NCBI RefSeq assembly: GCF_021284765.1
Contig: NZ_CP089924.1
Span: forward strand, 3,118,001 to 3,182,000
Source of the DNA: Lysobacter sp. 5GHs7-4
GTDB taxonomy: Bacteria > Pseudomonadota > Gammaproteobacteria > Xanthomonadales > Xanthomonadaceae
Direction of reading: 5' to 3'
Length of the DNA stretch: 64,000 bases
In this document: in pieces, positions 7,170-40,308 of the stretch
How the letters are laid out: every line of letters begins with the position of its first letter
How positions within the stretch are numbered: position 1 is the first letter of the stretch
The notes under the pieces: model-generated
Seen by the model: the letters and a program-made list of their open reading frames with translations, nothing else
Told to the model about the DNA's origin: nothing
Database searches by the model: none
Made by a program: the position numbers and the translations under genes

Positions 7170-7253
7170 AGGAACGGGCTCATGCCACCGCTGGATCTGG
7201 CCGGGCGCATCGGTGCTCGGCGTTGTTCAAATGGGGTCAATCGGAGAATCGCC

Positions 7254-9457: not shown

Positions 9458-10209
9458 ACGATTTCAATCGCCACGCAGCAGATGCATCGGCCAAGATGAC
9501 TGATATCAGACATGGGAACAAAAGCGTTGCGCGCCGCGACGGGGGCACGACTCTGACGCCCGAGCAACTGGTCGAGCGCTCGATCATTCCTTTCGCCGAC
9601 GGCGCCAACCGGCAGCTGGTCAACGCTTTCCGGGAGCTGCGAACGCGCCTGCTGGCGACCGCGACGGACAACTTCATCACCTTGGTCGCGCCGGTCGGAC
9701 CGGGCTGCGGGGGCAGCTTCGTGGCGCGCAATCTCGCGCTCACGATCACCCTCGAGCAGGAGAAGAGCGCGCTGCTGATCGATTGCAACCTGCTGCATCC
9801 GGTCCAGCATTCGGTGCTGAAGGTGAACGATTCTCGCGGCAGCCTGATCAACTACCTGGAAGACCCGGATGCCGATGTGGACGACATGATCTACGGCACC
9901 GTCATCCCGCGCTTGAAACTGATCCCGGCGGGACGGTCGGCCTACAGCGAGATGGAGACCGAGCACTTCTCCTCGTTCCGCATGCGTCTTCTGCTGGATT
10001 CCCTGAAAAGCAGTTTTTCAGATCGCTACATCTTCCTGGACAGCCCGCCCACGCTGGGTGCGCCCGATGCGCGCATCCTTTCGGAGCTGGCGGACGTCGT
10101 GGTCCTGGTCGCGGGATACGGCCGGAACACCTCCGCGGAAATCGCCGCAGCTGCCGCCAATTTCGATCCCGCTAAGTTCGCCGGCGTTATTTTCAATGAG
10201 AGCGCCTGA
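9454..10209 (+). CDS. CpsD/CapB-like ATPase with degenerate P-loop
   Basis: A 251-residue cytosolic protein of the bacterial tyrosine-kinase (BY-kinase)/ParA-like family, the usual partner of the chain-length protein. Walker A-prime (ALLIDCNLLHP) and Walker B (YIFLDSPPTLG) are recognisable. The Walker A loop reads APVGPGCGGSFVARNLA: the lysine of GK[ST] is replaced by glycine, so normal ATP binding and autophosphorylation are doubtful. There is also no tyrosine-rich C-terminal tail. It may be a non-catalytic regulator of the chain-length protein, or the kinase may be encoded elsewhere. It overlaps both its neighbours (ATGA with the gene before; the next gene starts inside its end), so it is co-translated. 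Confidence 0.82.
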   Translation: MNDFNRHAADASAKMTDIRHGNKSVARRDGGTTLTPEQLVERSIIPFADGANRQLVNAFRELRTRLLATATDNFITLVAPVGPGCGGSFVARNLALTITLEQEKSALLIDCNLLHPVQHSVLKVNDSRGSLINYLEDPDADVDDMIYGTVIPRLKLIPAGRSAYSEMETEHFSSFRMRLLLDSLKSSFSDRYIFLDSPPTLGAPDARILSELADVVVLVAGYGRNTSAEIAAAAANFDPAKFAGVIFNESA

Positions 10210-11542: not shown

Positions 11543-11559
11543 CGCAGGGACCCGGGGCC

Positions 11560-12696: not shown

Positions 12697-12774
12697 GCGT
12701 GACGCCTTCGCCCGACTGGCCGTCGATGGCGCCAGGCAACGTTGTTTCTACTGAACAGGAGTCGGGTAACGATA

Positions 12775-18242: not shown

Positions 18243-18258
18243 CGGACCGGAATCCACC

Positions 18259-23193: not shown

Positions 23194-23958
23194 TCATCGG
23201 CTCGCGGGCCGCTCGCCGTGGTCGCGCCAGCGGTAGTAGGCGATCCCCACCCACTCGTGCAGGGCAAGCTCGGTATTGGCGAGCGCGCTGGTTCGCGGAA
23301 CCAGCGCCCAAGGCAGGCGCGAGGGCAAGCTGCGCGCATCCGTGGCCAGCGGACACACTTCGAAACCCGCACCGGCAAACGCCGCGCGTGCACGCGGCAT
23401 GTGGATCAGCGAAGTCACCAGCACAATGCGGCCGGGCAGCGGCGGCGACAAGCCCGCGGCATGACGAGCGTTGTCCCAGGTATCGTCGGATCGGCTATCC
23501 ACGCGCAGGGCCGCCGCCGGAATGCCCTGCGTTTGCGCATACGCCGCCATCAGCTCGGCCACGCCGATGCCGCCGCGGGGCTCGCCGCCTTCCAGCACCA
23601 GCAGGCGCCCTTCGCGCTCGCGCCACCAGGCGACCGCGCGGTCCATCCGTCGCCGCGAGGCCAGATTGAGCACGGAGAAATCGGCAGGGCCGCGCGGGCG
23701 CCCGTCGCTACCGCCACCCAGCACGACGGCAATCGACGGCGGCGCGGTTCGGCACGCGAGCGGCGCAGCGACCGGAGCTTGCAGCGGCTTCCCGAGCAGA
23801 TTGGCCACCAGCGGCGTCATGCTCGCCAGCGCTACGACCGCCAGCGTAGCGCTCGCGATCAACGGCCATCGCCGGCGCTGGCGACGGCCCCACGCCCAAG
23901 GCATCGCCGCAGCCGCCAGCAACAGCCACGCGAGCGGAGAGAGCAGCCAGGTCGTCAC
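23194..23958 (-). CDS. YdcF/ElyC-like DUF218 membrane protein
   Basis: A 254-residue protein of the DUF218 (YdcF/SanA/ElyC) family. Two N-terminal membrane segments (WLLSPLAWLLLAAAAMPWAW and an Ala/Leu-rich one near residues 33-50) precede the domain, which shows AVVLGGGSDGR, LLVLEGGEP, RVDSRSDDTWDNARHAA (the family's T-x-x-N signature) and VLVTSLIHMPRARAAF. The start is a GTG one base after the stop of the flippase gene. Family members are linked to envelope carbohydrate and undecaprenyl-linked precursor metabolism, which suits this locus. Biochemical function is unknown. Confidence 0.85.
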   Translation of the reverse strand: MTTWLLSPLAWLLLAAAAMPWAWGRRQRRRWPLIASATLAVVALASMTPLVANLLGKPLQAPVAAPLACRTAPPSIAVVLGGGSDGRPRGPADFSVLNLASRRRMDRAVAWWREREGRLLVLEGGEPRGGIGVAELMAAYAQTQGIPAAALRVDSRSDDTWDNARHAAGLSPPLPGRIVLVTSLIHMPRARAAFAGAGFEVCPLATDARSLPSRLPWALVPRTSALANTELALHEWVGIAYYRWRDHGERPASR

Positions 23959-25518: not shown

Positions 25519-27285
25519 TCACCGCCGGGGAGAGTCCGGATGAGCCGGGCCGTTGACCGACGCCGGATGGGGAGCCGCCACCGACTGCGTTGGGCCGGCA
25601 AACGACGCGCGAGCACCTGCGTCCATTGCGGCCCGCTCGTCCAGCACCTCCACATACGCGCTGTTCGGCGGGCGCCCGAGCACGTCCAGGACTTCGACGC
25701 CGCCGGCCGCGTTGTAGGTATGGCATCCATCGACACTGCGCGTCAGGTAGGGAGCGAGCCGCGAAAGTGGCCGCTCGCGGTACGTAGTGGGCCCCAGCTC
25801 CAGCACTTCGTTGAATACGACCGCATTGCCATAGCCCGGCCCGCAATCCTGCGCCGGCCGGATCAACCTGCCGTTGCGCCGGAACAGCTTTCCCGCCATC
25901 CGTGCGCGGCGCACGTCGCAGACGATGGGAGATTCCGGATGCGGCACGTACGGTCCGTCGAGCCTATCGGCGACGAACAGGAACAGTTCGTCGCAGGTAT
26001 TGTTCTGGTTCTCCGCGACGTTGGCGAACAGGTACCAACGGCCTTCGTGATGATGGAGGGTGGGATCCACGCAGACGCGTCCGGTGACGAGATCCCGCAC
26101 CCGCGTCCATCCCAACGGGAAGTCGGTGGCCCGATACAGGCTGACGCGCTGGTCGTAACTGGACTCTACCGTCATGTACCACTGCCCATCGGAGGCAAAG
26201 ACTTGCGGGAAAGACAGGTGCCCGGGCTCGTCCAAGGCGACGCCGAGCGCGCGCGCGCGCCCCGCCGTCAGTTCCACGCAGGCGATGGTCGCTTTCTTGA
26301 GGCGCGGGTCCAGCATTTCCTCCACGAACAGCAGCCTGCGATCCTGCGCCATCACTACGAAGGGGTCGCCCCACCACCCCTTCGGCGCTTTCAGCAGCGC
26401 ATGCGATCCGATCACCGGCGACTGCGGATCCAGCGGCGCTCCGCCCAGGCGCAGCACCAGCGTCCAGCCGACGCGAGCGTTCCTGAACCAGCCGGTCAGC
26501 CAACGTGGGGACGCACGCACGATCGACGCGAATGCGCGTAGCCCGGCGGATCGCCCGATCGGCGCCTGCGGCTGAAGTTCCAACGTCGCCATCGAAACGG
26601 AGCCTGCGGCGAGGTTTTCCCGGGCCCTGCGATGCAGGGCGCGCAGCAGCAAGGCGGGCAGCTTGCGGAACGCATCTTCGCGCTGTTTGAGAAATGAAGT
26701 CGCCCGGGTCCGGCCCCAACTGGCGGCGAGGTCGATGGGAGCCTGGTTCGGCTCGCGCAGGACCAGAGCCATCTGCGTCGCGGTTTCGCGGCGCATCATC
26801 GGGCCTAGCAGCGAGAGCCCCGCATTGCGAGGGTCGAGCAGGCTCGCGTCGATATGCCAGCAAGCGCATTCGATCCGGCTGGCCAGGGCGGACGCCCAGG
26901 GTTCGGTACCGAGCACGATGACGAGATCGGGGTGCGATCCGCTGATGCGGTCAGGCAGGGAGACCTCGCGTCCGCGTCCGGTGGCCTCTTGCGGATCGGA
27001 CGGCATCGGCGTCGCCGCCAGGCTGCGGCTGCCGCCGAGCAAGGCATGCTCGAACGCAAGCAAGGCGCGGACGCTTCCGGGAATTCCGGAGACCTCGGGC
27101 AGCGCCGCGTCGTCGGCGATCAGCGTCGTCAGCTCGATCCAGGCATAGTCGGCCGCCAGACCGTGGAATGCCCGTAACCAGCCCGGCACCTGCGGCGGAC
27201 CTACCAGGGTTACGCGCAACGGCCGCGCGGCGACCGTTGGCGCGGGATAGAGCGGGGTTCGCGCTCGCGTGCCGATGCCTGTCAT
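25519..27285 (-). CDS. GIPC-transferase-like protein (GINT1 N-domain/GH43-like propeller)
   Basis: A 588-residue protein with two parts. Residues about 20-260 form an alpha/beta domain (LRVTLVGPPQVPGWLRAFHG, PDLVIVLGTEPWASAL, ASLLDPRNAGLSLLGPMMRRE), resembling the formyltransferase-like module found in this family. Residues about 290-560 form a five-bladed propeller-like domain with KAPKGWWGDPFVVM, HLSFPQVFASDGQWYM, CVDPTLHHHEGRWYLFANV and RNGRLIRPAQDCGPGYGNAVVF. The latter are hallmarks of the domain named after plant glucosamine inositolphosphorylceramide transferase 1. Starts at an ATG overlapping the hydrolase stop (ATGA). In bacteria such proteins occur in surface-glycan loci; a transfer or glycosidase-like role on a lipid- or carrier-linked sugar is inferred, not shown. 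Confidence 0.8.
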   Translation of the reverse strand: MTGIGTRARTPLYPAPTVAARPLRVTLVGPPQVPGWLRAFHGLAADYAWIELTTLIADDAALPEVSGIPGSVRALLAFEHALLGGSRSLAATPMPSDPQEATGRGREVSLPDRISGSHPDLVIVLGTEPWASALASRIECACWHIDASLLDPRNAGLSLLGPMMRRETATQMALVLREPNQAPIDLAASWGRTRATSFLKQREDAFRKLPALLLRALHRRARENLAAGSVSMATLELQPQAPIGRSAGLRAFASIVRASPRWLTGWFRNARVGWTLVLRLGGAPLDPQSPVIGSHALLKAPKGWWGDPFVVMAQDRRLLFVEEMLDPRLKKATIACVELTAGRARALGVALDEPGHLSFPQVFASDGQWYMTVESSYDQRVSLYRATDFPLGWTRVRDLVTGRVCVDPTLHHHEGRWYLFANVAENQNNTCDELFLFVADRLDGPYVPHPESPIVCDVRRARMAGKLFRRNGRLIRPAQDCGPGYGNAVVFNEVLELGPTTYRERPLSRLAPYLTRSVDGCHTYNAAGGVEVLDVLGRPPNSAYVEVLDERAAMDAGARASFAGPTQSVAAPHPASVNGPAHPDSPRR

Positions 27286-28130
27286 CCGATTTGCCGCCCC
27301 GGCAACCGGGCCATCCAGTCCACGATCGCTGCGATCAGGCGCTCGCGCTGCGTCCGCCCGAAATAAGTGTGGTCGCAATCGGGCCAGTAGTGCATCGTCA
27401 CGCGCGGGTCGCGCGCCGCGGCGCCGAAGGCCCATTCGAACTGGCGCGTATGCAGGAACCGATCGGCGAAGCCGCCGCTGAAGATGCACAGCAGGCGGAC
27501 ATCGCGCGCCACCATCGCCGCGAACTGTTCCCGAGCCTGCGCATGACTGGGCCAGGTGCGAAACGCGTTCGAATCCAGACCGGCGTTTCCGCGCATGCGC
27601 CCGCGCATCTTGCGGGCGAAGTGCCGCCATTCCCTGGGCAGGCGACGCAGCAGCTCGAGCGTACGCGCGTAGTGGTACCAGGGACCGGTGAAGCACAAAC
27701 CGTCCAGCTGCAATACCGCCGACACCCGCGCATCGATGTTGGCGACATCCCAGCCGGTATCGGCGGCGCTGCAGATTCCACCCACCGCGAAGACGCGGCA
27801 GCCGTGCATCGCCTCGAGCTGGTCCAAGGCGGCGATCGTCGCCTGCGTGGCGTCGCACTCCGGCATGCGCGGCGCCTCTCCCACGCCGGGAATATCGTAT
27901 CGGAAGCTTCGAATGCCCCGCGCCGCGAGCTGCTGGGCCAGCAGCGCATGCAATCGGAACGGCCCGGATCGAGGTTGCAGGCCCGCGCTGGGCAACAGCA
28001 GCGTCGGCCCGGTGCCGGGCGCGCCGCTGAGTACGCCGTGCAAGCGTCCGCCGGGGCCGAAGCGCACGAACACATCCTCGGCCGCGGCGGCCTCGACGGG
28101 CGCGGCATCCAGCAGCGCATTCATGCCCAT
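27282..28130 (-). CDS. Alpha/beta-hydrolase, exosortase-A-associated hydrolase 1-like
   Basis: A 282-residue alpha/beta-hydrolase. The nucleophile-elbow region reads AVGGICSAAD: a Cys sits where the GxSxG serine is expected, as in hydrolase-1 proteins of exosortase-A exopolysaccharide loci (GLCDAAS-type). A C-terminal WPDCDHTYF supplies an Asp and the catalytic-type His. TLLLPSAGLQPRSGPFR and RSFRYDIPGVGEA form the oxyanion and following strands. The start is either 28130 or 28124 (two close Met codons); both overlap the stop of the second hydrolase. Because the neighbouring NRPS-PKS lacks a thioesterase domain, this enzyme or its partner could release or transfer its product; this is inference. 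Confidence 0.82.
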   Translation of the reverse strand: MGMNALLDAAPVEAAAAEDVFVRFGPGGRLHGVLSGAPGTGPTLLLPSAGLQPRSGPFRLHALLAQQLAARGIRSFRYDIPGVGEAPRMPECDATQATIAALDQLEAMHGCRVFAVGGICSAADTGWDVANIDARVSAVLQLDGLCFTGPWYHYARTLELLRRLPREWRHFARKMRGRMRGNAGLDSNAFRTWPSHAQAREQFAAMVARDVRLLCIFSGGFADRFLHTRQFEWAFGAAARDPRVTMHYWPDCDHTYFGRTQRERLIAAIVDWMARLPGRQIG

Positions 28131-28924
28131 GCTTCCTCGCGAACCGCTTGTCCCAACTTGCCGACCAGCTCGCGAACCGGAGGCGTGAGGAAGAATGTCG
28201 CGTCCATCGCCGCGCCGATACTGAAGCTGGGCGCATTGGCAGGCAGCGGCAATCTCCTGGCGATGTTCATGGAGAGCGCCGCCAGATCGTCGCGAACGAT
28301 CGCCCACACGGGTACGGCGTGGCGATGCATGCCGTCGTCCAGGCGGGTTTTCTCCAGGTCGGCACGCAGGCGCGACGGCGCGGGGAAGCCCATCAACTGG
28401 CCGTCCGACGGATCGGTCGCGCGCGCGACGCCGGCACGCGGCGGCGGACGCAGCGCACGTTCGCGCGCATCGCCCTCCACCAGTTCCCGCACCCAGGCGC
28501 CGCCATCGACTATCGGCTCCCAAAGCAGGATCAGGTCGGCGCAACCGCCGCGCTCCAGCCATCCGCGCACCGCAAGCGCGCCGCCGCGCCATGCGATCAG
28601 AACCAGCCGCCGGATCCGGGTCTTTTCGCGCAGCGCGGCCGTCGCCAAATCCAGATCCCGATGCATCGAGGCGAGATCCAATCCCTCCCCGCTGCCCGCG
28701 GAATCGCCGGTGCCGTGAAAATCGAAACGCAGGGCCGGCAGGCCCAGGCTCGCCAGTTCGCTGGCGACTTCGGTGACGAACCGGCGGCTGCGCGGCATTT
28801 CATGCAGCAACGGCGGCACCAGGACGACGCCGGTCTCCGGCGCACCCGACGCGGCGTGGAGCGCGGCATACAGCCGGTGCGACGCAGGTCCAAGCCAGAA
28901 CGGCTCCCAACCATCGAGGCTCAT
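28121..28924 (-). CDS. Alpha/beta-hydrolase, exosortase-A-associated hydrolase 2-like
   Basis: A 267-residue alpha/beta-hydrolase. VVLVPPLLHEMPRSRRFVTEVASELASLG and ALRFDFHGTGDSAGSG match the hydrolase-2 family of exosortase-A loci. The elbow reads LIAWRGGALAV, with no serine or cysteine nucleophile, so ordinary hydrolase chemistry is doubtful. The ATG at 28924 has GGAGG 8 nt upstream and is preferred to the GTG at 28930. It lies about 50 bp after the NRPS-PKS gene and overlaps the partner hydrolase, which suggests the three proteins work together. The pair of divergent hydrolases mirrors the hydr1/hydr2 pair of XrtA systems, although no exosortase is present here. Confidence 0.82.
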   Translation of the reverse strand: MSLDGWEPFWLGPASHRLYAALHAASGAPETGVVLVPPLLHEMPRSRRFVTEVASELASLGLPALRFDFHGTGDSAGSGEGLDLASMHRDLDLATAALREKTRIRRLVLIAWRGGALAVRGWLERGGCADLILLWEPIVDGGAWVRELVEGDARERALRPPPRAGVARATDPSDGQLMGFPAPSRLRADLEKTRLDDGMHRHAVPVWAIVRDDLAALSMNIARRLPLPANAPSFSIGAAMDATFFLTPPVRELVGKLGQAVREEAWA

Positions 28925-28973
28925 CGCCACCGCCTCCGCGCATTGTCGGGATCGCAGTTGAAGGCAGCCAGGT

Positions 28974-31900
28974 TCATGGGCGGGATCCCTGATGCAGTCC
29001 GAACAGGCGTCGCAAACCGTTGCTGATGCGCCCGCCCACGCCGCCTGCGGGTATGGCGCCGTCCGTGGGAACGGGCAGGTCCGCGGCGACCTGGGCCAGG
29101 GTCTCCACGCCCAGGCGGATCAACTTGATCCGCCTGCCGGTATCGAGCTCGACGCGATTGGCCATCTGTACCGCAAGCATCGAGTGGCCGCCCAGTTCGA
29201 AGAAGTTGTCGTCGGGGCCTGCAGGCAGGCCCAGGAACTCGGACCAGATCTGCGACAGGTAACGGACACGTGGGTCGGCTGCCGCCCCAGTCGCGCTCGG
29301 AGAAGGCGCAACCGCCTCCTCTTTAGCGACTGGCGGCAGCAGCGCGTTCCGGTCGATCTTGCCGTTGGGCAAGAGCGGAATCTCTTCGAGCACGACGAAA
29401 TGCTGCGGCAGCATGTAGGCCGGCAGCAGTCCGCGCAGATGCGCGCGCAAGGCCGCTTCGTCGATGCTCGCGCCCGGCGCGGCGACCAGATAGGCCACCA
29501 GGCGCTGGTCGTTCGCGCGATCCTCGCGCACGATCACGAGCGCACGGGCGACCTCCTCGCGCGTGGCGAGGTTGGTCTCGATCTCACCCAGTTCGATGCG
29601 ATAGCCACGCACCTTGACCTGGTGATCGAGACGGCCCATGTGCTCGAGATTGCCGTCCGCGCGCCAGCGGCCGCGATCCCCGGTGCGGTAGAGCAAAGCC
29701 GCGACATCGCGCCCCGGCGTGCTGGCGGCTGTCGCCGTGTAGCCGTCGGCCACAAAGCGCTCGGCCGTCAACTCAGGCCGCTCCAGATAGCCCTTGGTGA
29801 CGCCTTCGCCGCCTATGCAGATCTCACCCGGCACGCCGAGCGGGCAAAGCTCGCCGTGCGCATCCAGTATCCACACGCTGGTGTTGCCTATCGGTCGGCC
29901 GATATGGATGTCGGGCGCCTGTCCATCGTCAGCCGGGACTATGCGCGCGCAGGTCGACCACACCGTGGTCTCGGTGGGCCCATAGACGTTCCACAGCGAT
30001 CCGCAACGCGACAACAGCGATGTGGCCAGATCGACGGCCATCGGTTCGCCGCCGCACAGGGCCTTGAACTCGCGCCCTCCGTGCCAGCCCGCATCGATCA
30101 GCAGGCGCCAGCTCGAGGGCGTGCCCTGCATCACCGTCGCGCCGCTGCTTTCCAGCAGCCTGCGCAACGCGGCTCCGTCGCCGGCGGTTTCGCGATCCGC
30201 AAGCACGATCTGCGCGCCGACCGCCAACGGCAGCAGCAATTCCAACACCGCGATGTCGAACGACAGCGTGGTCAGCGCCAGCAGCCGGTCCTGCGCGACC
30301 AGCCCCGGCTCGCGGCGCATGCTGTCGAGGAAGTTGGACACGGCCCGATGCGGCACGACGACGCCCTTGGGGCGGCCCGTGGACCCCGACGTGTAGATCA
30401 CGTAGGCCGGATCCTCGGGCTGCGCGGCGTGTTCGTCGCGGCCAAGCCGCGTCGTCGCAGCTGTCGCAAGCTCGGGCGCGGGTTCGTCGAACAACAGCAC
30501 CGGTCTGCCGCGCAGATCGAAGTTCGCGGCATGCTCGCGCGTGGTCAGCAGCAGGGCCAGTCCGGCATCGGCGGCCATGTAGGCCAGGCGTTCCGGCGGG
30601 AATTGCGGGTCCAGCGGCACGTAGCCCGCGCCTGCCTTGAGTATGCCCAGCAGCGCGGCCAGCATGTCGGGACCGCGATCGAGCGCCAGGCCCACCAAGG
30701 CGCCGCGGCGGACGCCGTGGCTGCGCAACGCATGGGCAACGCGGTTGGCGCGGGCCTCCAACTCGGCGTAGCTCACCGACGCCCGACCTGCGTGCAGCGC
30801 GACACCGCCCAGCGCACGGTCGCACTGGGCCTCGAAATACTCGTGCATCCTGCATTCGCGGTCGTAGGCGACCGCAACCGGCTGCAACGACGACAGCTCC
30901 TGCCGCGCAACCGCATCGACCAGCGGCAGGCTCGCGAAGCCCGCCGTCTCGCGCTCTACCGCGGCGCGCAGCAAGGCTTCATAGGCGCACAGCCAGCGCC
31001 GGATGGTGGCGGCATCGAACAGGTCGCGGTTGTACTGGCATTCCAGCCGCAGCTGGCCGTGAACCTGTACCGCGTTCACGAACAGCTCGAACGTCTCGAA
31101 GCTGCGTGGATTGCTATCGAACTCCATGGACACGCCGTGAAACGCGGTGCATTCCTGATCCATGGCCTGGTCGAGGTTGAACAGCACGCTCACCAGCGGT
31201 ATCCGCGCGGGATCGCGCCGTATCCGCAACTTCTTCAGCAGCGTGCCGAAGGTGTAGCGCTGGTGCTCCAGCGCATCGAGCAGCATCGCCTGCGCGCCGT
31301 CGATCGCGTCTGCGAACGAGTTCGCCGAATCCAGCTCGAAGCGCAGCGGCAGCAGATTGACGCAGTGGCCCACCAGGTGGTCGGCGCCGCAGATCGCCTG
31401 CCCCGCCGCGGGAATCCCGACCACCACGTCCGACTGCGACGACAGACGCGACAGCAACGCCGAAAACCCCGCCAGCAGCGTGGCGAACATACCGACGCCG
31501 CGAGCCGCGCCCAGCCGGCGCAGGCCATCCAGTAAGCCGGCGTCGAGCACGTGATCCAGGCGCGCCGAGGCGAAGCTCCGGATCGGCGGCCGCGGCCGAT
31601 CGGTAGGAAGCTCCAATACGGGCGTGCCGGCGGCGAAACGCGAGAGCCAGTACGCCTCGTCGGCCGCATGGGCCGCGTCGTTCTGATGCCCGGCTTCCGC
31701 CACTGCGTAGGCGACGAACGAGGATGCGTCAGGCAGTGTCGAGGCCGCGTTTTCGAAGCGCTTTCCGTACAGCGCGCCGAGCTCGCGCACGATGGCCCAC
31801 CACGACCACCCGTCGCAGACGATGTGGTGCGCCGTCAGCAACAACAGATGGTCGTCTTCCGCCAGGCGCAGAAGCTCGGCGCGAAACAGCGGCGCCTGGG

Positions 31901-34900
31901 CGAGATCGAAGGGCGTTTCCACGGTGATCCGGATGCTCTCGTCGACGGCGTCCCGCCTGTCGGCGGGAACCAACGACGAAAGATCCTTGATCGACAGCGG
32001 AACGGCGCACCGTTGCAGGACACGGAAGCTCTCGCCATCCGGGCCGATGCTGGCGCGTAGCGACTCGTGCCGATCCACCAGCTCCTGCAGTGCGTCGCGC
32101 ATGAACTCCAGGTTCAACCCGCCCTGGAACCGCAGCGACACTGACAGATTGAAGGCCAGCGACGCATCCCGCCCGAGCTGATCGGCGAGCCAAATCTCGC
32201 GCTGCGGCTCCGTGGTCGGCGCGACGCGCACGAGGGCGCCGTCTATGGACAGGTCGTAGCCGGCATGCACGAGCTCGGTGGCGTCGTTGCCGGACGCCGC
32301 GCATGCCGCTGCGTCCTTCGACGGATCGAGCCCGACAAGCGGTTGCTGCAGCGGCGGCTTCTGTTGTTCCGGCAGACGGCGCGCCGGGTCTTCCGCGCTC
32401 TCCGGCCCGTATGCCACGGCCGTCGACACCGGCACGCCCGCGGGCTCCGGCGGCAGTTGCGCATCCAGCATGGTCGCGAGGCTTCGCAGGCTGCTGCACT
32501 CGCTCATCAGTTGCCGGAACGTCAGCTTGACCGAGAATGTCTTCTGCAGGCGCAGCGCCACCTGGGTCAGCATCAGACTGTCCAAGCCCAGCGCCATGAA
32601 ATTGGCTTCGTCGTCGACTTCGGACAGGTCCAAGCCGACCACGTCCTCGAAGATGTCCGAAAGCCGCGCGACCAGCCTCGTCCGCCGATCCGGCGCCGCC
32701 ACGGCGGCCGACACGGCCGCATCCTCGGGAGCGGGTGCGGGCGCCGACGCAACCGCAGGCGCAACACCCGCGTCGGGGAGTTGGACGACGCCCGGGCTGG
32801 CCGCAGCCTCGACCCAGTAGCGCTGACGTTCGAACGGATAGGTAGGCAGCAATACGCGCCGACGCGAGTGGCGACGGTCGAACGCGGCGATGTCGAGCGG
32901 CGTGCCGCGGCACCACAGCTGACCCGCGGCGGACAGGATGCTGGCAGCTTCGAGCGCAGGGTCGTCGGCAAGCGACGGCACCGCCGTGGCCTGCTGTTTC
33001 AGCATCGCAGGCTGCTGACGCGACAGCGTGCTCAGGGTGGCGCGCGGGCCCGCTTCGAGCAGCACCCGCGCCGGTGTTTCCAGCACCTTGGCTAGCGCTT
33101 TCGCGTAGCGCACGGGTTCGCGCAGGTGCGAGGCCCAGTAGTCGGGAGATCTCGCCGACTGTGCCTCCAGCCAATCCCCGGTCGCGGTCGAAACGATGGG
33201 AATCAGGGGCGAGGACAGTTTCAGCGCGGCCACCTCGGCACGGAACGGCGCCACCACCGGCTCCATCATCTGCGAATGGAAGGCGTGCGAGGTACGCAGC
33301 GCGCGGCATGCAACGCCCTGGGCCTCGAGTTCGGCCTGGAAGCGCGCAACCGCCTCCAAGCTGCCCGATACGACGGCGCTGCCCGGCGCGTTCTCGGCGG
33401 CCAGCGACAGGTCCGCTGGCATTGCGGCCAGCAGTTCGTCCAACGCCAGCCGTACCGACAGCATGCCGCCGGCCGGCTGCGCCTGCATCAGCGCGCCGCG
33501 CCGCGCAACCAGCTTCAGCGCGTCGGGCAAGGTGAACACGCCGGCCAGCGTCGCGGCGACGAATTCGCCGATGCTGTGTCCGATCATCGCCTTCGGCGCG
33601 ATGCCGTGACTCATCCACAGTTGCGCGATCGCGTACTCGATCGCGAACGTCGCCGGCTGCATGATCGCGGTGGGAAGCAGCGCTTCCGGGTCGTCCGAGA
33701 AAACGCGTTCGCGCAGGTCGAAGCCGAGTTCGGCGAGCAGCGCATCGGCGCAATCGTCGAACGCTGCCTGGAAGGCCGGCTCGGTGCCGTACAGGCCACG
33801 CCCCATGCCCGGGTAGGTCGCGCCCTGTCCGGGAAACAGGAACACCACCTCGCCCTGCCGTACCGGCTGGCCGCGTGCCGCAGCCGCTGCGATTTCCGGA
33901 CTGCGCAGCTGCGCGACCGCACCGGCGACGTCGTCGGCGACGACGGCGATGCGATGTGCGAACGCCTTGCGGCCCACGGCCAGCGTCCACGCCACATCGG
34001 CCAGGTTGATGGTCGCATCCGAATCCAGATGGTCGGCCAGGCGCGTCGCCGCGCGCGCGAGCGCCGCCGGCGTGCGCGCGGACAGCGCCAGCAATTGCGG
34101 CCCATGCGCCGGGTCCGAGACCGGCCGCGTCGGCGCCTCCTCCAGCACGACGTGCGCATTGGTGCCTCCCACGCCGAACGAACTCACGCCCGCTCGACGC
34201 GGGACGTCCGTGGCGGGCCAGTCCGTCAGCGCGTCGTTGACTACGAACGGCGACCCGGAAAAATCGATGGCCGGGTTCGGCGATTTGAAATGCGCGGTTG
34301 CCGGAATGCGCTGTTCGGCCAATGCCAGCGCGGTCTTGATCACGCCGGCCGCGCCCGCGGCTATGACCAGGTGACCGACGTTGCTCTTCACCGAGCCGAT
34401 CCTGCAGAAGCCGCATTCCTGCGTGCCCCTGCGGAATGCGCGCGTCAGGCCCTCGATCTCGATCGGATCGCCTACCGGCGTGGCGGTACCGTGGGTCTCG
34501 ACGTAGCCGATGCTGCGCGGATCCACGTGCGCGCGATCGTGGGCCATGGAAATGACCGCCGCCTGGCCTTCGCTGCTGGGGGCGGTGAAACTGGCTTTGC
34601 CGGCGCCGTCGTTGTTGACCGCGCTGCCGCGAATCACCGCGAATATCGGGTTGCCGTCCGCCAAGGCATCGGACAGGCGCTTGAGCAGCACGATCGCCGC
34701 GCCATCGCTGAACACGGTGCCCTGCGCGCTCGCATCGAACGGCCGGGTGTGGCCGTCGGGCGACAACATCGATCCTTCCTGATAGAAGTAGCCGCTGCGC
34801 GGCGGGCAAGTGACGGCGACGCCGCCGGCCAGGGCCATGTCGCAATGGCCGAGCGTCAGGCTGTCGACGGCTTGGCAGATCGCCACCAGCGATGTCGAAC

Positions 34901-37319
34901 ACGCCGTATGCACGCTGACCGCCGGGCCGGTCAGATTGAGCTTATGCGCCACCCGGGTGGCGACGAAGTCCTTCTCGTTGTTCAACATCACCTGGAACGC
35001 GCCGACCTTGTCGACCAGGTCCGGGTGCGCGGACACATGCCGCTGGAAATAGCTGGCATTGAACATGCCGCCGAACACGCCTACCGGGGCCGAGCTGGCG
35101 TCGGGCACGTGGCCGCCGCGCTCCAGGCACTCCCAAGCGAGTTCCAGGAAGATCCTGTGTTGCGGGTCCATCAGCTCGGCTTCCTTCGGACCGATGCCGA
35201 AGAACGCCGCGTCGAACCGCTCGACGCCGTCGATCACGCCGCGCGCGGGCACATACGCCGGATCGTCGCGATCGCGCGCAGCGACGGCGGGATCCAGATC
35301 CTCCGGGCCGAACACCGTGATCGAATCGCGTCCGTCGCAGAGGTTGCGCCAGAACGCCTCGACATCCGTAGCGCCCGGAAAGCGCCCCGACATGGCGACG
35401 ATGGCGATGGGCTCGGCGACGGTCCCGCCGCCTTGCTTCCGATGCGCCGACGCATAACGTGCCGGATCGATCCCCGCAGCGCCGCGGCCTTCGAGCGAGT
35501 CGGCCAGCGTCGCCGGCGTCGGATAGCGGAACAGTTGCGCGGTCGGAATGGCGCTGGCGTGCGCTCCGGCTTGCTGGAGCCGTTGCAGCAGCCTTGCCGC
35601 CAGCAATGAATCGCCGCCGAGTTCGAAGAAGTTGTCGTTCCGCCCGACGTCGTCGACCGCGAGGATGTCGCCGAACGCGGCGCACAGCGCGGCCTCGAGC
35701 GCACCGACCGCCGGCTCGAACGCATGGGCGAGTTCGGGCCGCTGCCGGGTCGGGGCCGGCAGCGCGCGACGGTCGAGCTTGCCGTTTTCGGTCAACGGCA
35801 GCGCCTGCAGTTCGACGAACGCGCTAGGGACCATGTAGTCCGGCAGGACCGTCGCGAGATGGTCGCGCAAGGACGCGTGGGAAGCGTGCGCGTCGGCTGG
35901 AACGATGTAGGCGACCAGCCGCGCCTCGCCGCTGGCGCGGTCGTCGAGAGCGATCACGGCGCAGGCCCGGACGGACGGGTGCCTCGCCAGCACGCTCTCG
36001 ATTTCGCCGGTCTCGATGCGAAAGCCGCGGATCTTGACCTGGTGATCGCTGCGGCCGAGGTATTCCAGATCGCCATCGACCAGCGAACGGGCAAGGTCGC
36101 CGGTCTTGTAGAGACGCACGCTCTGCCCTTGGGGCGAGCGCCAGTGGAAGAACCGTTCGGCGGTCAGATCGGGGCGATTGAGATAGCCGCGGCTCACCCC
36201 GGCGCCCGCAACGTGGATCTCGCCGACTTCCCCGACCGCGACCGGCACGAGTTCGGGATCGAGCACATACAGGCGCAGGTCGGGGATGGGGTCGCCGATC
36301 ACGCTGCCCGCGTTGCGCTCCACGTCCGCGAGCGCGATCGGCCGGTAGGTGACATGGACCGTGGTTTCGGTAATGCCGTACATGTTGATCAGCCGCGGCG
36401 ATCGGTCGCCGTGACGCTCGAACCACGGGCGCAGCATCTGCAGTTCCAGGGCTTCGCCGCCGAACACCACGTAGCGCAGCGCCAGCTCCGAGGGGCCGCT
36501 GGCGGACGCGAGGTCGGCGTGGATGAGCCCGCGAAACGCCGACGGCGTCTGATTGAGCACGGTCACCCGCTCGCGCAGCAGCAGCGCGTGGAACGCTTCC
36601 GGCGAGCGACTGGCCAGAAACGGCACGACCACGACGCGACCGCCGTAGATCAGGGCGCCCCATATCTCCCACACCGAGAAATCGAAGGCATGCGAATGGA
36701 AGAAGGTCCACACATCGTCGCGGCCGAAGCCGAACCAGGGCTGGGTCGCGACGAACAGTCGCGCGACGTTGGCATGGGTGACTTGGCAACCCTTGGGCGT
36801 TCCCGTCGAGCCGGAGGTGTAGATGACATAGGCCAGATTTTCGAGCTGCGCCAGCGGCTCGGGATCGTGCGTCGGCTCCGCGGCGAACTCGGCCCAGTCG
36901 CTGTCCAGGATCAAGGTCGCTATGCCGGTCGCGGGCAAGGCGTCGCGCTGCCGCGTCGATGTCAGCAAGACGGCGGGACGCGCGTCCTCGAACATGAACT
37001 GCACGCGATCGCGCGGATAGGAGGCATCGACGGGCAGGTAGGCGCCGCCCGACTTCAGGATGCCGAGCAACCCAACCACCATATCCAAGGAGCGTTCCAA
37101 ACCGATCGCCACCAAGGTCTCCGGCCCCACCCCAAGCGAACGCAGGCGATGGGCGAGCTGGTTGGCACGACGGTTCAGCTCGCGATAGCTCAGGCTGGCG
37201 CCGTCGCAGCTGACGGCGATCGCATCCGGCTGCGCGGCCGCCTGCTGTTCGACCAGTTGCGGTATGCAGGCGAGCGGGCGGTACTGCGAAGAATCATCGG
37301 ATAGTTCGTTCTTACCCAT
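28974..37319 (-). CDS. Hybrid NRPS-PKS: A-PCP-KS-AT-ACP-C-A-PCP
   Basis: A 2781-residue megasynthetase. Order and key residues: A1 (about 20-520; VIYTSGSTGTPKG), PCP1 (LGGDSLL, Ser571), KS (about 635-1060; TACSTS with Cys807, THGT and NVGHL histidines), AT (about 1158-1470; GHSIGE with Ser1249, SHAFHS indicating malonyl specificity), ACP (GLDSLML, Ser1581), C (about 1680-2110; HHIVCDGWS), A2 (about 2140-2650), PCP2 (GGHSML, Ser2713). All core catalytic residues are intact. Specificity codes read by eye are DFWNVGMVHK for A1 (threonine type) and DILQLGVVWK for A2 (glycine type). No KR, DH, ER, MT, epimerase, thioesterase or reductase domain. The predicted assembly is Thr, one malonate extension keeping the ketone, then Gly. 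AGGGGA precedes the ATG at 37319. It heads a minus-strand operon with two hydrolases, a GIPC-like protein, a flippase and a DUF218 protein. Confidence 0.93.
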   Translation of the reverse strand: MGKNELSDDSSQYRPLACIPQLVEQQAAAQPDAIAVSCDGASLSYRELNRRANQLAHRLRSLGVGPETLVAIGLERSLDMVVGLLGILKSGGAYLPVDASYPRDRVQFMFEDARPAVLLTSTRQRDALPATGIATLILDSDWAEFAAEPTHDPEPLAQLENLAYVIYTSGSTGTPKGCQVTHANVARLFVATQPWFGFGRDDVWTFFHSHAFDFSVWEIWGALIYGGRVVVVPFLASRSPEAFHALLLRERVTVLNQTPSAFRGLIHADLASASGPSELALRYVVFGGEALELQMLRPWFERHGDRSPRLINMYGITETTVHVTYRPIALADVERNAGSVIGDPIPDLRLYVLDPELVPVAVGEVGEIHVAGAGVSRGYLNRPDLTAERFFHWRSPQGQSVRLYKTGDLARSLVDGDLEYLGRSDHQVKIRGFRIETGEIESVLARHPSVRACAVIALDDRASGEARLVAYIVPADAHASHASLRDHLATVLPDYMVPSAFVELQALPLTENGKLDRRALPAPTRQRPELAHAFEPAVGALEAALCAAFGDILAVDDVGRNDNFFELGGDSLLAARLLQRLQQAGAHASAIPTAQLFRYPTPATLADSLEGRGAAGIDPARYASAHRKQGGGTVAEPIAIVAMSGRFPGATDVEAFWRNLCDGRDSITVFGPEDLDPAVAARDRDDPAYVPARGVIDGVERFDAAFFGIGPKEAELMDPQHRIFLELAWECLERGGHVPDASSAPVGVFGGMFNASYFQRHVSAHPDLVDKVGAFQVMLNNEKDFVATRVAHKLNLTGPAVSVHTACSTSLVAICQAVDSLTLGHCDMALAGGVAVTCPPRSGYFYQEGSMLSPDGHTRPFDASAQGTVFSDGAAIVLLKRLSDALADGNPIFAVIRGSAVNNDGAGKASFTAPSSEGQAAVISMAHDRAHVDPRSIGYVETHGTATPVGDPIEIEGLTRAFRRGTQECGFCRIGSVKSNVGHLVIAAGAAGVIKTALALAEQRIPATAHFKSPNPAIDFSGSPFVVNDALTDWPATDVPRRAGVSSFGVGGTNAHVVLEEAPTRPVSDPAHGPQLLALSARTPAALARAATRLADHLDSDATINLADVAWTLAVGRKAFAHRIAVVADDVAGAVAQLRSPEIAAAAARGQPVRQGEVVFLFPGQGATYPGMGRGLYGTEPAFQAAFDDCADALLAELGFDLRERVFSDDPEALLPTAIMQPATFAIEYAIAQLWMSHGIAPKAMIGHSIGEFVAATLAGVFTLPDALKLVARRGALMQAQPAGGMLSVRLALDELLAAMPADLSLAAENAPGSAVVSGSLEAVARFQAELEAQGVACRALRTSHAFHSQMMEPVVAPFRAEVAALKLSSPLIPIVSTATGDWLEAQSARSPDYWASHLREPVRYAKALAKVLETPARVLLEAGPRATLSTLSRQQPAMLKQQATAVPSLADDPALEAASILSAAGQLWCRGTPLDIAAFDRRHSRRRVLLPTYPFERQRYWVEAAASPGVVQLPDAGVAPAVASAPAPAPEDAAVSAAVAAPDRRTRLVARLSDIFEDVVGLDLSEVDDEANFMALGLDSLMLTQVALRLQKTFSVKLTFRQLMSECSSLRSLATMLDAQLPPEPAGVPVSTAVAYGPESAEDPARRLPEQQKPPLQQPLVGLDPSKDAAACAASGNDATELVHAGYDLSIDGALVRVAPTTEPQREIWLADQLGRDASLAFNLSVSLRFQGGLNLEFMRDALQELVDRHESLRASIGPDGESFRVLQRCAVPLSIKDLSSLVPADRRDAVDESIRITVETPFDLAQAPLFRAELLRLAEDDHLLLLTAHHIVCDGWSWWAIVRELGALYGKRFENAASTLPDASSFVAYAVAEAGHQNDAAHAADEAYWLSRFAAGTPVLELPTDRPRPPIRSFASARLDHVLDAGLLDGLRRLGAARGVGMFATLLAGFSALLSRLSSQSDVVVGIPAAGQAICGADHLVGHCVNLLPLRFELDSANSFADAIDGAQAMLLDALEHQRYTFGTLLKKLRIRRDPARIPLVSVLFNLDQAMDQECTAFHGVSMEFDSNPRSFETFELFVNAVQVHGQLRLECQYNRDLFDAATIRRWLCAYEALLRAAVERETAGFASLPLVDAVARQELSSLQPVAVAYDRECRMHEYFEAQCDRALGGVALHAGRASVSYAELEARANRVAHALRSHGVRRGALVGLALDRGPDMLAALLGILKAGAGYVPLDPQFPPERLAYMAADAGLALLLTTREHAANFDLRGRPVLLFDEPAPELATAATTRLGRDEHAAQPEDPAYVIYTSGSTGRPKGVVVPHRAVSNFLDSMRREPGLVAQDRLLALTTLSFDIAVLELLLPLAVGAQIVLADRETAGDGAALRRLLESSGATVMQGTPSSWRLLIDAGWHGGREFKALCGGEPMAVDLATSLLSRCGSLWNVYGPTETTVWSTCARIVPADDGQAPDIHIGRPIGNTSVWILDAHGELCPLGVPGEICIGGEGVTKGYLERPELTAERFVADGYTATAASTPGRDVAALLYRTGDRGRWRADGNLEHMGRLDHQVKVRGYRIELGEIETNLATREEVARALVIVREDRANDQRLVAYLVAAPGASIDEAALRAHLRGLLPAYMLPQHFVVLEEIPLLPNGKIDRNALLPPVAKEEAVAPSPSATGAAADPRVRYLSQIWSEFLGLPAGPDDNFFELGGHSMLAVQMANRVELDTGRRIKLIRLGVETLAQVAADLPVPTDGAIPAGGVGGRISNGLRRLFGLHQGSRP

Positions 37320-37529
37320 GTTTCCCCTGCCCTCGCCCGCAGCACCTGGCGACCCTCCCGTGATGACATCCCAGTCGTGTCTCCCCTTTCGGCATCCGGC
37401 AGGGTCAGGATCGCGCGTCGATGTCATGACAAACGCCGTCGGGGTGGCCATGCGGCCATGCGCGAATTGCAGGCAAATCGCTTCCCACGCGCGCTCTGCG
37501 CGCTACGATGGGGCCATGGGAGGTCTCCG

Positions 37530-37988
37530 ATGAAAGCCGACCTGACGCTGCTCTACTCCGAACTGGGGCTGAGGCCCAACTGCAGCCTGGAGGAACTTCA
37601 GCTTGCCTATCGCCGGCGGATTTCCGAGCTGCACCCCCGGCGCCCCGGAGCGAAGCTGCCATCGCAGGAATCGGCTTACCTGTGCGATCTGATCGGCCTT
37701 TACACCACGGCCACCCGCTTCCATCGCCGCTACGGGCGCCTGCCCGGGGAAGCCCCGCGCCGGATCGGCGGTGGCGGTCCATCGCAGGCCGGCGCGCCTC
37801 GGACCTATGCCGCCTACAGCCCACGCCCTTACGAGTCTCGCCCTTTCGACTCACGCCCTGTCGAGTCCCGCCCTTCCTCCGACCCTAGCCCGCCCGCGCC
37901 GTCGCGGGCCGCATTGGTACTGGCGGTCGCGGTCCTGATCCTCTTGTTCGGCCTGCTGGCGCTCGCCTCCGGGGAATGGCTGAGGTAG
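37530..37988 (+). CDS. Degenerate J-domain-like membrane-anchored protein
   Basis: A 152-residue protein. Residues 1-45 look like the start of a J-domain (LYSELGLRPNCSLEELQLAYRRRISELHPRR), but the invariant HPD is HPR, and the helix after it is followed by a different sequence. Then comes a low-complexity linker with repeated Tyr/Phe-Glu/Asp-Ser-Arg-Pro units (YESRPFDSRPVESRP) and a single C-terminal transmembrane helix (ALVLAVAVLILLFGLLALA), giving a tail-anchored layout with the J-like part in the cytosol. GGGAGGT lies 5 nt upstream of the ATG. Its partner and function are unknown; a chaperone-like or scaffolding role for the adjacent membrane system is possible. Confidence 0.7.
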   Translation: MKADLTLLYSELGLRPNCSLEELQLAYRRRISELHPRRPGAKLPSQESAYLCDLIGLYTTATRFHRRYGRLPGEAPRRIGGGGPSQAGAPRTYAAYSPRPYESRPFDSRPVESRPSSDPSPPAPSRAALVLAVAVLILLFGLLALASGEWLR

Positions 37989-38138
37989 CAGGCCCGCGAT
38001 CGCGCATCCGCGCCTGTCGGCATCCGCATTTACGAAGGCGCCACACCTGGTCGCGATGTCCGCAGACGCGGCCCAGGCCCGTTGTTCATGAGGCAGGCGC
38101 GAGGCGGAAACCAAACCACACAGGCGACTGGTGAAACG

Positions 38139-38879
38139 ATGGACGCCAGGAAGATCCCGCTCAACCCATGGGCCATCACCGGGCCCCTGTCCCTCGCGAC
38201 GGTCTTGCTGGTGGCCGCCAACATCAGCTTGCAGGCCTATCGGCTGATCGCGCACCAGGAGCATGTCGTCGGCCTGGCGATGATCAGTCTGGACGGAGAA
38301 AACAACCTGCCGGCGTTGTTTTCGACCCTGCTGCTGTTCTGCGCCTCGCTGACCCTGTCGCTGATCGCCGTGCTGGAAAGGCAGCACGAGGGTGTCGACG
38401 TGTCGAAGTGGGCGATTCTCGCCGCCGGCTTCATGCTGATGACCCTGGACGAAGACTTGTCGTTCCACGAATTGCTGATCGCGCCGCTGCGCACGCTGCT
38501 CGGCGGCCAGCACCTGGGGATCTTCTTTTTCGCCTGGGTGATTCCGGGCTTCGCGCTGGTCGCCGCCCTAGGCGCGTTCTTCCTGCGTTTCCTGTTCCGC
38601 CTGCCGCGCCGGACGGCGATCGCCTTCGTGATTTCCGCCGCGATCTACCTGGGCGGCGCCTTGGGCGTCGAACTCGTCGAGGGATGGTGGCGCGAGGCGC
38701 ACGGACACAGGAACCTCACCTATCACCTGCTGGTCAGCCTGGAAGAAGGCATGGAGATGACAGGCGTCATCGTTTTCATCCATGCGCTGCTGAACTACAT
38801 CGCGAAACGCTACGGCGAAGTGCGATTCTCCTTCGCCGGCATGCACAACGACGCGGACGCATCCGAGCCTGCGAACTGA
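38139..38879 (+). CDS. Polytopic membrane protein of unknown function
   Basis: A 246-residue protein with about six hydrophobic segments (PLSLATVLLVAANISLQAY, ALFSTLLLFCASLTLSLIAVL, KWAILAAGFMLMTLDE, IFFFAWVIPGFALVAALGAFFL, TAIAFVISAAIYLGGALGVELV, TGVIVFIHALLNYI). Charged residues lie inside or beside helices (LMTLDEDLSFHE, LGVELVEGWWRE, VSLEEGMEMTG), a pattern of conserved acidic/His residues often seen in membrane enzymes. I do not recognise the family. The start is not firmly fixed: ATG 38139 is used, and ATG 38088 is an alternative. It is transcribed convergently with the sugar transferase gene. Confidence 0.75.
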   Translation: MDARKIPLNPWAITGPLSLATVLLVAANISLQAYRLIAHQEHVVGLAMISLDGENNLPALFSTLLLFCASLTLSLIAVLERQHEGVDVSKWAILAAGFMLMTLDEDLSFHELLIAPLRTLLGGQHLGIFFFAWVIPGFALVAALGAFFLRFLFRLPRRTAIAFVISAAIYLGGALGVELVEGWWREAHGHRNLTYHLLVSLEEGMEMTGVIVFIHALLNYIAKRYGEVRFSFAGMHNDADASEPAN

Positions 38880-38913: not shown

Positions 38914-40308
38914 TCAGCGCGAACCGCGGCGGAACAGAACCACCTCGACCGTCTGCAGCAGGATCAGCAGGTCGAATACCAGCCCGTGGTTCTTCACGTA
39001 GAACAGATCGAACGTGAGCTTCTCCTCGGCATCCTGCACGGACGCGCCGTAGGGATAGCGCAGTTGCGCCCAGCCGGTCAGGCCGGGTTTCACGCAATGG
39101 CGGACGTTGTAGTAGCGCACTTCCTGGTTGAGCATGTCGACGAACTTCGGCCGCTCAGGCCGCGGGCCGACGAAGCTCATCTCCCCCAGCAGGATATTGA
39201 ACAATTGCGGAAGCTCGTCGAGGCGCGACAGGCGGATGATCTTGCCGACCCGGGTGGTGCGATCGTCGTTCTGGGTAGCCCACCTCGCCACACCGTCGGA
39301 TTCCGCATCCACGCGCATGCTGCGGAACTTGATCAGCTCGAACGTGCGTCCGTTCTCACCGATCCGCGTTTGCCGATACAGGACCGGACCGCGCGACTCC
39401 AGCGTGATGCATGCCGCGACCAGCAGCATGAAGGGCCAGGCGACCAGCAACAGCGCGCAAGCCGCGGCCAGGTCGAAGAAGCGCTTGTTGAGGCGGCGCG
39501 GCATCGAGTGGTCGAAGCCGCCCGAAAACGCGAGCCACGACGGGTCCGCCACGTTCAGTTTCACCATGCCGGCCTCGCGTTCGAAGAACGTCGACAGATC
39601 GGTCACGGTGACTCCGCGCTGCGCGCACGTCAGCATCTCCTCCATCGGCAGCGCGCCGCGTCGCTCGTCGGGCGCAACGACGATCTCGTAGACGTGCAGC
39701 CACTCCGCGATTTCGGACAACGCGAAATCCGTACTCAGCAGCAGGTTCTCGCGCACCAGTACCGGCTGCCCCGGCACCGGCACGAAGCCCACGACCACGA
39801 AGGATCTCCGGTCGGATCCCCGCCGCAAGCGGGTATTGATGAGATCGGCGTTCTTGCCCGCGCCGAACACCAGTACCCGGCGCCTGAACAAATCGGTCTT
39901 GAACACCCGCTCGACGATCATACGCAGCGCGGCCACCACGACGAAGCCGATCACCAATGCCATCGCCAACACGCCGCGGCCGATATAGGCGGCGGGGGCC
40001 ACGTAGTACAGCACCAGCAACACGATGCCGCCGGATGCGAAGGACAGCAGCAACCTGACGAAGAACTCCATCCGGTTGTGGCGCACGTGCACCTGATACA
40101 AGCCGAACGCCACCATCGACACGGTGATGAAGACGGCGAACACGAACGCGCGCACGGGCGCCCATTGGAAGAAGCTGAACAAACTTTGCGATGTGTCCTG
40201 GAAGCGCAGCCATGCCGCCACCATGACCGACAGGATCAGCAGCCAGGTCTCGCCCAGCCAAAGCAGCAGCAACGCGCGATTCTTGCGACTGGCCAGTGCG
40301 ATGCTCAC
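38914..40308 (-). CDS. EpsB/WcaJ-like undecaprenyl-phosphate sugar-1-phosphate transferase
   Basis: A 464-residue polyprenyl glycosylphosphotransferase that starts the lipid-linked repeat unit. About four N-terminal transmembrane helices (ALLLLWLGETWLLILSVMVA onward), a CoA-binding-like Rossmann domain (RRRVLVFGAGKNADLI), then the catalytic sugar-transferase domain after a re-entrant hydrophobic helix (KRFFDLAAACALLLVAWPFM): GPVLYRQTRIGENG, FELIKFRSMRVDAESDG, LDELPQLFNILLGEMSFVGPRPERP, and VKPGLTGWAQLRYPYG. These are the invariant motifs of the family, and the layout fits the XrtA/PEP-CTERM sugar transferase subgroup. The start is GTG. It is separated from the main operon but is surely the initiating enzyme of this locus. 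Confidence 0.92.
   Translation of the reverse strand: MSIALASRKNRALLLLWLGETWLLILSVMVAAWLRFQDTSQSLFSFFQWAPVRAFVFAVFITVSMVAFGLYQVHVRHNRMEFFVRLLLSFASGGIVLLVLYYVAPAAYIGRGVLAMALVIGFVVVAALRMIVERVFKTDLFRRRVLVFGAGKNADLINTRLRRGSDRRSFVVVGFVPVPGQPVLVRENLLLSTDFALSEIAEWLHVYEIVVAPDERRGALPMEEMLTCAQRGVTVTDLSTFFEREAGMVKLNVADPSWLAFSGGFDHSMPRRLNKRFFDLAAACALLLVAWPFMLLVAACITLESRGPVLYRQTRIGENGRTFELIKFRSMRVDAESDGVARWATQNDDRTTRVGKIIRLSRLDELPQLFNILLGEMSFVGPRPERPKFVDMLNQEVRYYNVRHCVKPGLTGWAQLRYPYGASVQDAEEKLTFDLFYVKNHGLVFDLLILLQTVEVVLFRRGSR

Follow-up and report, generated by a model that had tools for sequence, protein, structure and literature searches.

A hybrid NRPS-PKS megasynthase in a Lysobacter exopolysaccharide locus and a hydrolase pair that may transfer its product to the polymer

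The window, a 64,000-nucleotide stretch of Lysobacter sp. 5GHs7-4 DNA analyzed here at its full length, carries a hybrid NRPS-PKS megasynthase inside an exopolysaccharide (EPS) locus, immediately followed by two alpha/beta-hydrolase genes, hydr2 and hydr1. On balance, we lean toward a function in which the megasynthase would make a small molecule that differs among relatives and the two hydrolases would transfer it to the EPS as a decoration.

The megasynthase gene (P0001; 2,781 amino acids) runs from an ATG at 37319 to 28974 on the minus strand with no internal stop; the plus strand of 28974..37319 contains stops and has no open reading across. Reading frame, Pfam and motifs give the domain order A-T-KS-AT-T-C-A-T, with matches above cut-off for the AMP-binding (two), PP-binding (three), ketoacyl synthase, acyltransferase and condensation domains (one each), and no Pfam match for a KR, TE, reductase or aminotransferase. 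On the minus strand, Pfam and pocket alignment place the first adenylation domain (A1; Thr-type code DFWNVGMVHK) at 35778..37250 and the second (A2; Gly-type code DILQLGVVWK) at 29340..30827. Pfam and motifs place the KS domain (C-H-H intact) at 34287..35414, the AT domain (GHSIGE and HAFH) at 32970..33845, the second carrier (T2) at 32466..32666, the condensation domain (HHIVCDG, matching HHxxxDG) at 30894..32225 and the last carrier (T3), with no TE after it, at 29070..29282. The A3 motif and the A10 Lys are intact in both A domains, and the three carrier serines are present. A sequence-only reading had described eight domains with intact catalytic residues, and that description held, with exact coordinates. 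Because near-full-length matches are found in three named genomes, those of Lysobacter sp. Root76, Root916 and cf310 (residues 1 to 2779 or beyond, 85–87% in the best segment), the reading is not a product of chance. With A, C and T domains plus KS and AT domains and their catalytic motifs in one protein, the enzyme belongs with the type I NRPS-PKS hybrids; it lacks a C-terminal TE or reductase of its own, a feature that is not obligatory for all members.

Both pocket codes proposed earlier were reproduced by alignment in their first nine letters (DFWNVGMVH for A1 and DILQLGVVW for A2); conserved motifs served to locate the pocket positions, and the final K of each code was taken from the A10 motif. 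The proposed malonyl specificity of the AT domain agrees with its HAFH motif, which we take to be malonyl-type. Threonine, then malonate, then glycine are the predicted substrates, and published codes support the two amino acid predictions. DFWNVGMVHK is given as Thr and DVQFVAQVVK as Pro (PMC9113097), DFWNIGMVHK as Thr (PMC3547906; PMC12283262) and DILQLGMIWK as Gly-activating, and DALWIGGTFK is grouped with Val codes (PMC12283262).

The enzyme had also been described as flanked by sugar-polymer genes on both sides and as sharing an operon with a flippase, and the gene map bears this out. On one side, plus-strand genes encode a TviB-like UDP-sugar 6-dehydrogenase (4783..6156; under the equivalog cut-off), an EPS export protein (7182..7871; TIGR03027 over cut-off), a chain-length determinant (7868..9457; TIGR03007, 272.0 versus a cut-off of 278.85), a TIGR03018-like tyrosine autokinase (9454..10209), a TIGR03016-like EPS outer-membrane protein (10058..11542; true start probably further in), three glycosyltransferases (11443..15250; one GT2 and two GT4), a polymerase candidate of the Wzy_C/O-antigen-ligase type (15311..16639) and a PaaK-like adenylate-forming enzyme (18166..19638); the UDP-glucose 4-epimerase gene galE (3579..4871) is on the minus strand. 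Distant homologues of the PaaK-like enzyme (31–33% identity) adjoin the megasynthase in four related loci (L004, L008, L070 and L077). Beyond the other end of the megasynthase lie two plus-strand genes, then the gene for the initiating sugar-phosphate transferase EpsB_2 (38914..40308, minus strand; TIGR03013 over cut-off) and, further on, MutS. TIGR03013 and TIGR03027 over cut-off, together with a PF01943 flippase, Wzy_C and the near-threshold TIGR03007 match, identify a Wzx/Wzy-type EPS locus.

Downstream of the megasynthase, on the same strand and separated by overlaps or short gaps, the order is 43 bp, hydr2 (28121..28930), hydr1 (27282..28124), a GINT1_N/GH43-like gene (25519..27285), a Wzx-type flippase (PF01943; 23960..25438, start inferred) and an ElyC/DUF218-like membrane protein (23194..23958). 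The hydr1 frame overlaps both of its neighbors. Longer open frames at 25519-28236 and 27282-28592 were rejected at full length, their upstream stretches being spurious. The C-terminal half of the GINT1_N/GH43-like model resembles GH117/GH43 propellers, with a moderate GINT-like fold match (target TM-scores of 0.31–0.53 in the top 20 rows); its N-terminal domain, unassigned, recalls formyltransferases, though by eye only. The two plus-strand genes beside the megasynthase encode a small DnaJ-domain-like protein (37377..37988; Pfam match under cut-off) and a family-less protein that looks membrane-like by eye (38082..38879). Homologues of the former recur in many related loci, encoded close to EpsB_2 and the megasynthase and running in the other direction. 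Homologues of the latter were found in only 6 of 49 proteobacterial loci (L001, L002, L003, L014, L023 and L026), which are the Thr-type loci without an aminotransferase; one of them adjoins the megasynthase in L. ruishenii too, outside the EPS locus, and the protein might be a clade-specific partner.

Hydr1, an alpha/beta-hydrolase by profile (model mean pLDDT 86.6), is TIGR03100-like, with a Cys nucleophile (GGICSAA) and a His; hydr2 is a TIGR03101-like alpha/beta-hydrolase with Arg at the nucleophile elbow. Both score far under the family cut-offs (48.3 versus 168.45 bits for TIGR03100 and 58.8 versus 202.75 bits for TIGR03101). The elbow Cys is present in 71 of 71 hydr1-like ORFs, some from overlapping loci, and the His is invariant in 23 of 23 aligned hydr1 sequences. 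Arg occupies the elbow in 59 of 64 hydr2-like ORFs; of the other five, three are fused proteins with Gly at this position, and two are hydr1 ORFs with Cys. A Cys-elbow hydr1 beside an Arg-elbow hydr2 fits the pattern that we ascribe to XrtA hydrolases 1 and 2; that this pattern defines TIGR03100 and TIGR03101, which are named hypothetical equivalogs in NCBIfam, is our reading and not NCBI's. The missing release step of the megasynthase may lie in this adjoining pair, a candidate that the sequence-only reading had not named.

The position of the pair in other genomes is consistent with a role as the link between the megasynthase and the EPS genes. Within the family of the window enzyme, the pair comes after the megasynthase in G000 and in G054 (locus L212), and hydr1 lies less than 10 kb from KS-AT in G126, G136 and G185. 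The order megasynthase, hydr2, hydr1, GINT-like gene is repeated in G012 (L167; KS-AT 54%). In a second family of the order, the pair sits directly behind the EPS export genes in 16 of 16 loci (L196–L210 and L166), in the same-strand order export protein, chain-length determinant, kinase, outer-membrane protein, hydr2, hydr1, and the megasynthase is 22–90 kb from the pair or on another contig. Nineteen loci were examined around hydr1 and 15 counted here (L196–L210); of the others (L211–L214), L213 and L214 have no export genes in the stretch examined. L211 (G035, C26:1-19900) holds two hydr2-hydr1 pairs; NRPS genes adjoin both, with an aminotransferase domain in one case. Nine hydr-like loci found with weaker hits, mostly fused hydr2/hydr1 (L156 and L158–L165), have no adenylation domain in the 14–20 kb examined; the pair is therefore not tied to an adenylating enzyme. 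At L156 and L159–L165, from other Proteobacteria, hydr2- and hydr1-like domains are joined in one protein of 575–1118 amino acids; some of these keep the Arg and Cys elbows, and three have Gly for Arg.

Relatives of the megasynthase were examined at 77 loci from named genomes, split by hand on record titles into 49 proteobacterial and 28 cyanobacterial or other loci, with flanks of up to 10 kb. There were matches to EPS core genes in 40 of the 49 proteobacterial loci (35 at 150 bits or more, five only below 150 bits), EpsB_2 in 32 and hydrolase genes in 35; any of the three was found in 46. Among the 28 other loci there was no match to EpsB_2 or the EPS core, and a single locus (L042) matched the hydrolase genes, which adjoin the enzyme there. 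L042 belongs to a Nostoc assembly, but we rejected it as a Nostoc locus, since its 91% DNA identity to L016 and its GC content of 70% suggest contamination from Pseudoxanthomonas. The three proteobacterial loci with no match to any of these genes are L025, on a 6-kb contig; L070, in whose genome EpsB_2 is apparently on the same contig just beyond the examined flank; and L026, from L. ruishenii, where the megasynthase is apart from the EPS locus and hydr1 lies 4.6 kb from EpsB_2. Six Burkholderiales-type loci (L005, L018, L019, L020, L022 and L029) have the megasynthase, hydr2 and hydr1; EPS core genes are absent from their examined flanks, and EpsB_2 is absent in both of the genomes tested. 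PF02397 transferases other than EpsB_2 do exist in the genomes searched. A megasynthase without polysaccharide genes had been named beforehand as the finding that would speak against a link; these six loci and L. ruishenii are such cases, but most loci keep both. The system had also been proposed as undescribed, and in this respect the window enzyme proved to be one of a family.

We also surveyed 200 genomes of the order, scoring four KS-AT candidates per genome and up to 12 for the hydr1 profile, so misses are possible. KS-AT matched at E values up to 1e-100 in 40 genomes, with a best match of at least 63% identity in 22. EpsB_2 was found in 34 of the 200 genomes and in 21 of the 22 with a close KS-AT, which upholds the predicted co-occurrence with EPS genes (Fisher p 1.4e-18, a value that is overstated because the surveyed genomes are related). 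In the 20 genomes with both on one contig, the gap is 2.8–18.5 kb and the strand is the same in every case (20/20), with EpsB_2 upstream of KS in 19; in G085 they are on different contigs. The exception, G189, has a close KS-AT with neither EpsB_2 nor hydr1 over threshold, and its stretch includes an EpsB_2-like piece (92 amino acids, 20 bits). A further 18 genomes have a KS-AT of lower identity only; four of these have EpsB_2, 33–51 kb off on the same contig in G012, G016 and G034 and on another contig in G178. The hydr1 profile matched 27 genomes, including 21 of the 22 with a close KS-AT; the remainder are G012, G016, G034 and G035, where a lower-identity KS-AT is on the same contig, together with G055 and G192. 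When the 34 genomes that carry EpsB_2 are considered, hydr1 was present in 24 of 24 with KS-AT (on the same contig or at least 63% identical) and in 0 of 10 counted without it, G178 being placed in the latter group despite a 43% KS-AT on another contig.

The outer end of the assembly line varies among relatives. A1 codes among the relatives are of Thr, Val, Pro and Ser types plus two types with no substrate assigned (the code DILIIGGIMK was left without one). The last A domain is mostly constant: at 45 loci, with four others that carry extra ORFs left out, the code is of the DILQ[LF]G type in 38 and DMPQLG in five, and in two only A1 was read. For pairs with KS identity of 75–80%, mean A1 identity is 66% when the code types are the same (39 pairs) versus 44% when they differ (177 pairs); AT identity in the same band is 68% versus 67%. 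None of 1000 label shufflings reached the A1 effect, and AT showed no such effect (−1.3 points). The KS-AT tree calls for at least eight changes of A1 type. The pattern suggests that domains are exchanged at A1, with a mostly constant Gly end for attachment.

A second variation concerns the ketone. The usual proteobacterial form, seen in most relatives, is two proteins, A-T-KS-AT-T-aminotransferase and C-A-T-C-(A)-T, so that an aminotransferase domain follows T2; the window enzyme's clade is without it. The earlier reading, that the ketone stays without a KR, stands as regards the KR, but the keto state of the window enzyme is probably derived, because a KS-AT tree places its clade among aminotransferase-bearing members, with one of these (P0006) inside the clade. 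That tree is a quick one with long basal branches and an unsure base, from which three near-identical loci and the window's own copy were left out. A trans-acting enzyme may carry out the amination in the window system. In L005, L009, L012, L018–L020, L022, L024, L029 and others, the end of the second protein reads C-T, with no A domain detected; loading of the last carrier of such proteins may occur in trans, or this carrier may serve as an acceptor. An apparent megasynthase-hydr2 fusion in Agrilutibacter (P0010) was rejected; its joint looks like a read-through or frameshift, and the usual hydr2 start lies inside.

From the architecture, codes, co-occurrence, A1 exchange and placement of the pair, we infer a product, an acyl transfer, a cellular location and a sugar acceptor, as follows. 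The megasynthase would build a Thr-malonyl-Gly chain (4-amino-5-hydroxy-3-oxohexanoyl-glycine), which would stay on the last carrier. The Cys of hydr1, helped by the nucleophile-less hydr2, would take the chain from this carrier and, still in the cytoplasm, attach it to a sugar of the lipid-linked EPS repeat unit. The decorated unit would then be flipped by Wzx, and the export machinery would make the polymer. The outer residue would vary among relatives because the first A domain is exchanged, and the Gly attachment end would be mostly constant. More tentatively, and with rather more reserve than for decoration as such, we suggest that the NRPS-PKS is a decorating arm of the EPS system, that the mostly constant Gly end of its product is attached by the Cys-hydrolase/pseudo-hydrolase pair, and that exchange of A1 (Thr, Val, Pro, Ser and others) plus gain or loss of the aminotransferase alter which group is exposed and so diversify the cell surface, rather like O-antigen genes.

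In favor of decoration are the co-occurrence of KS-AT with EpsB_2, the tracking by hydr1, the pair behind export genes, the missing TE, the A1 exchange, the conserved Cys elbow, ligase-like ORFs in XrtA loci (see below) and hydr1 near EpsB_2 in L. ruishenii; the six Burkholderiales-type loci, the nine hydr loci without adenylation domains, the low TIGR03100 and TIGR03101 scores and G189 count against it. The same observations bear on a free small molecule (a signal, protease inhibitor or tetramate-like compound) released by hydr1 as a trans-acting thioesterase, with the EPS location serving shared regulation, which we regard as rather unlikely. The Burkholderiales-type loci keep the megasynthase and the pair without adjoining EPS genes and therefore allow such a release, for which the alpha/beta-hydrolase fold of hydr1 and the missing TE would be suited; a PF01943-family flippase might also export a small molecule. 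However, in all 16 second-family loci examined the pair comes right after the EPS export genes, at a distance from the megasynthase, and XrtA EPS loci whose examined stretches lack a megasynthase have hydr2-hydr1 too. In L. ruishenii it is hydr1 that lies near EpsB_2 while the megasynthase is apart, an arrangement that points away from a free product as well.

A product present once in each polysaccharide chain, where it would cap, prime or anchor the polymer and not be a substituent of the repeat unit, would fit the initiating transferase upstream of KS in 19 of 20 genomes and the lipid anchors proposed for capsule-locus PKSs, but the predicted product is short and polar and the megasynthase has no fatty acyl step; we consider this improbable. 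More improbable still is that a mobile biosynthetic cluster came by chance to sit in a variable region of the chromosome. The window locus does adjoin mutS, recurring recA/lexA-like flank genes (by eye) are common to relatives, possibly marking a variable region, and the L. ruishenii enzyme is elsewhere. Against chance stand the conserved strand and order, the tracking of the megasynthase by hydr1 in EpsB_2 genomes, and the absence of EPS homologues from six stretches around five other NRPS/PKS places in the 4.71-Mb source genome.

Amino acid and acyl groups are among the substituents of surface polysaccharides. Among the matches listed in a search of the open-access literature by titles and abstract starts, a scope outside which most subscription papers fall, none was a paper on an assembly-line megasynthase or NRPS-PKS serving EPS. 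If decoration is correct, it would join natural-product megasynthases with EPS biosynthesis, two separate fields, and give the XrtA hydrolases TIGR03100 and TIGR03101 a role that can be tested. The relatives would also be natural variants in which an exchanged first A domain precedes an otherwise similar line, useful for enzyme engineering.

XrtA/PEP-CTERM EPS loci are the closest known counterparts, with the same kind of export and initiation genes; in these loci hydr2-hydr1 adjoin a carrier gene and one for an adenylating enzyme. Around strong TIGR03100 hits, eight loci of 20 kb each (L148–L155) were examined, and seven have a ligase-like ORF. TIGR03098 scored over cut-off in four of five loci scanned (L149, L152, L153 and L154) and under it in L155 (553.5 versus 592.35). 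Hydr2 and hydr1 are separate tandem genes in L148–L151 and fused in L155. In L149 and L151, a PP-binding protein of 94–104 amino acids precedes hydr2 (20.1 and 21.4 bits versus a cut-off of 20.8), and a TIGR03099 decarboxylase is near; the likeness to the window is best in L149. The window differs in having a full NRPS-PKS in place of the TIGR03098 ligase and small carrier (TIGR03098 scores 443.5 bits against the whole megasynthase, under the 592.35 cut-off), and its hydrolases, unlike those of XrtA loci, are under the TIGR03100 and TIGR03101 cut-offs. An exosortase link was rejected: TIGR02602 had no match at E values up to 0.001 in the source genome, which sets it outside the XrtA/PEP-CTERM systems, and a pattern scan of the 64-kb window gave no convincing PEP-CTERM-like tail. 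A term search of the text of Haft 2006 (PMC1569441) found no ligase, hydrolase, nonribosomal or polyketide.

Three other systems share single features with the window or with relatives of its enzyme. RkpA of Sinorhizobium and WcbR of Burkholderia are likewise type I PKSs encoded among surface polysaccharide genes, but they are FAS/PKS-like, are not known to have adenylation domains, and are the proposed makers of lipid anchors. NRPS-PKS lines of the iturin/mycosubtilin type, with KS-AT-T-aminotransferase and a fatty acid start, have their T-aminotransferase step in common with most proteobacterial relatives and not with the window enzyme, which starts from an amino acid and has no TE. In D-alanylation of teichoic acids by DltABCD, an A domain and a carrier bring an aminoacyl group to a cell-surface polymer, as we propose for the EPS here; DltABCD uses one amino acid and membrane transferases, whereas the window system would attach a predicted ketide-extended chain by means of soluble-type hydrolases.
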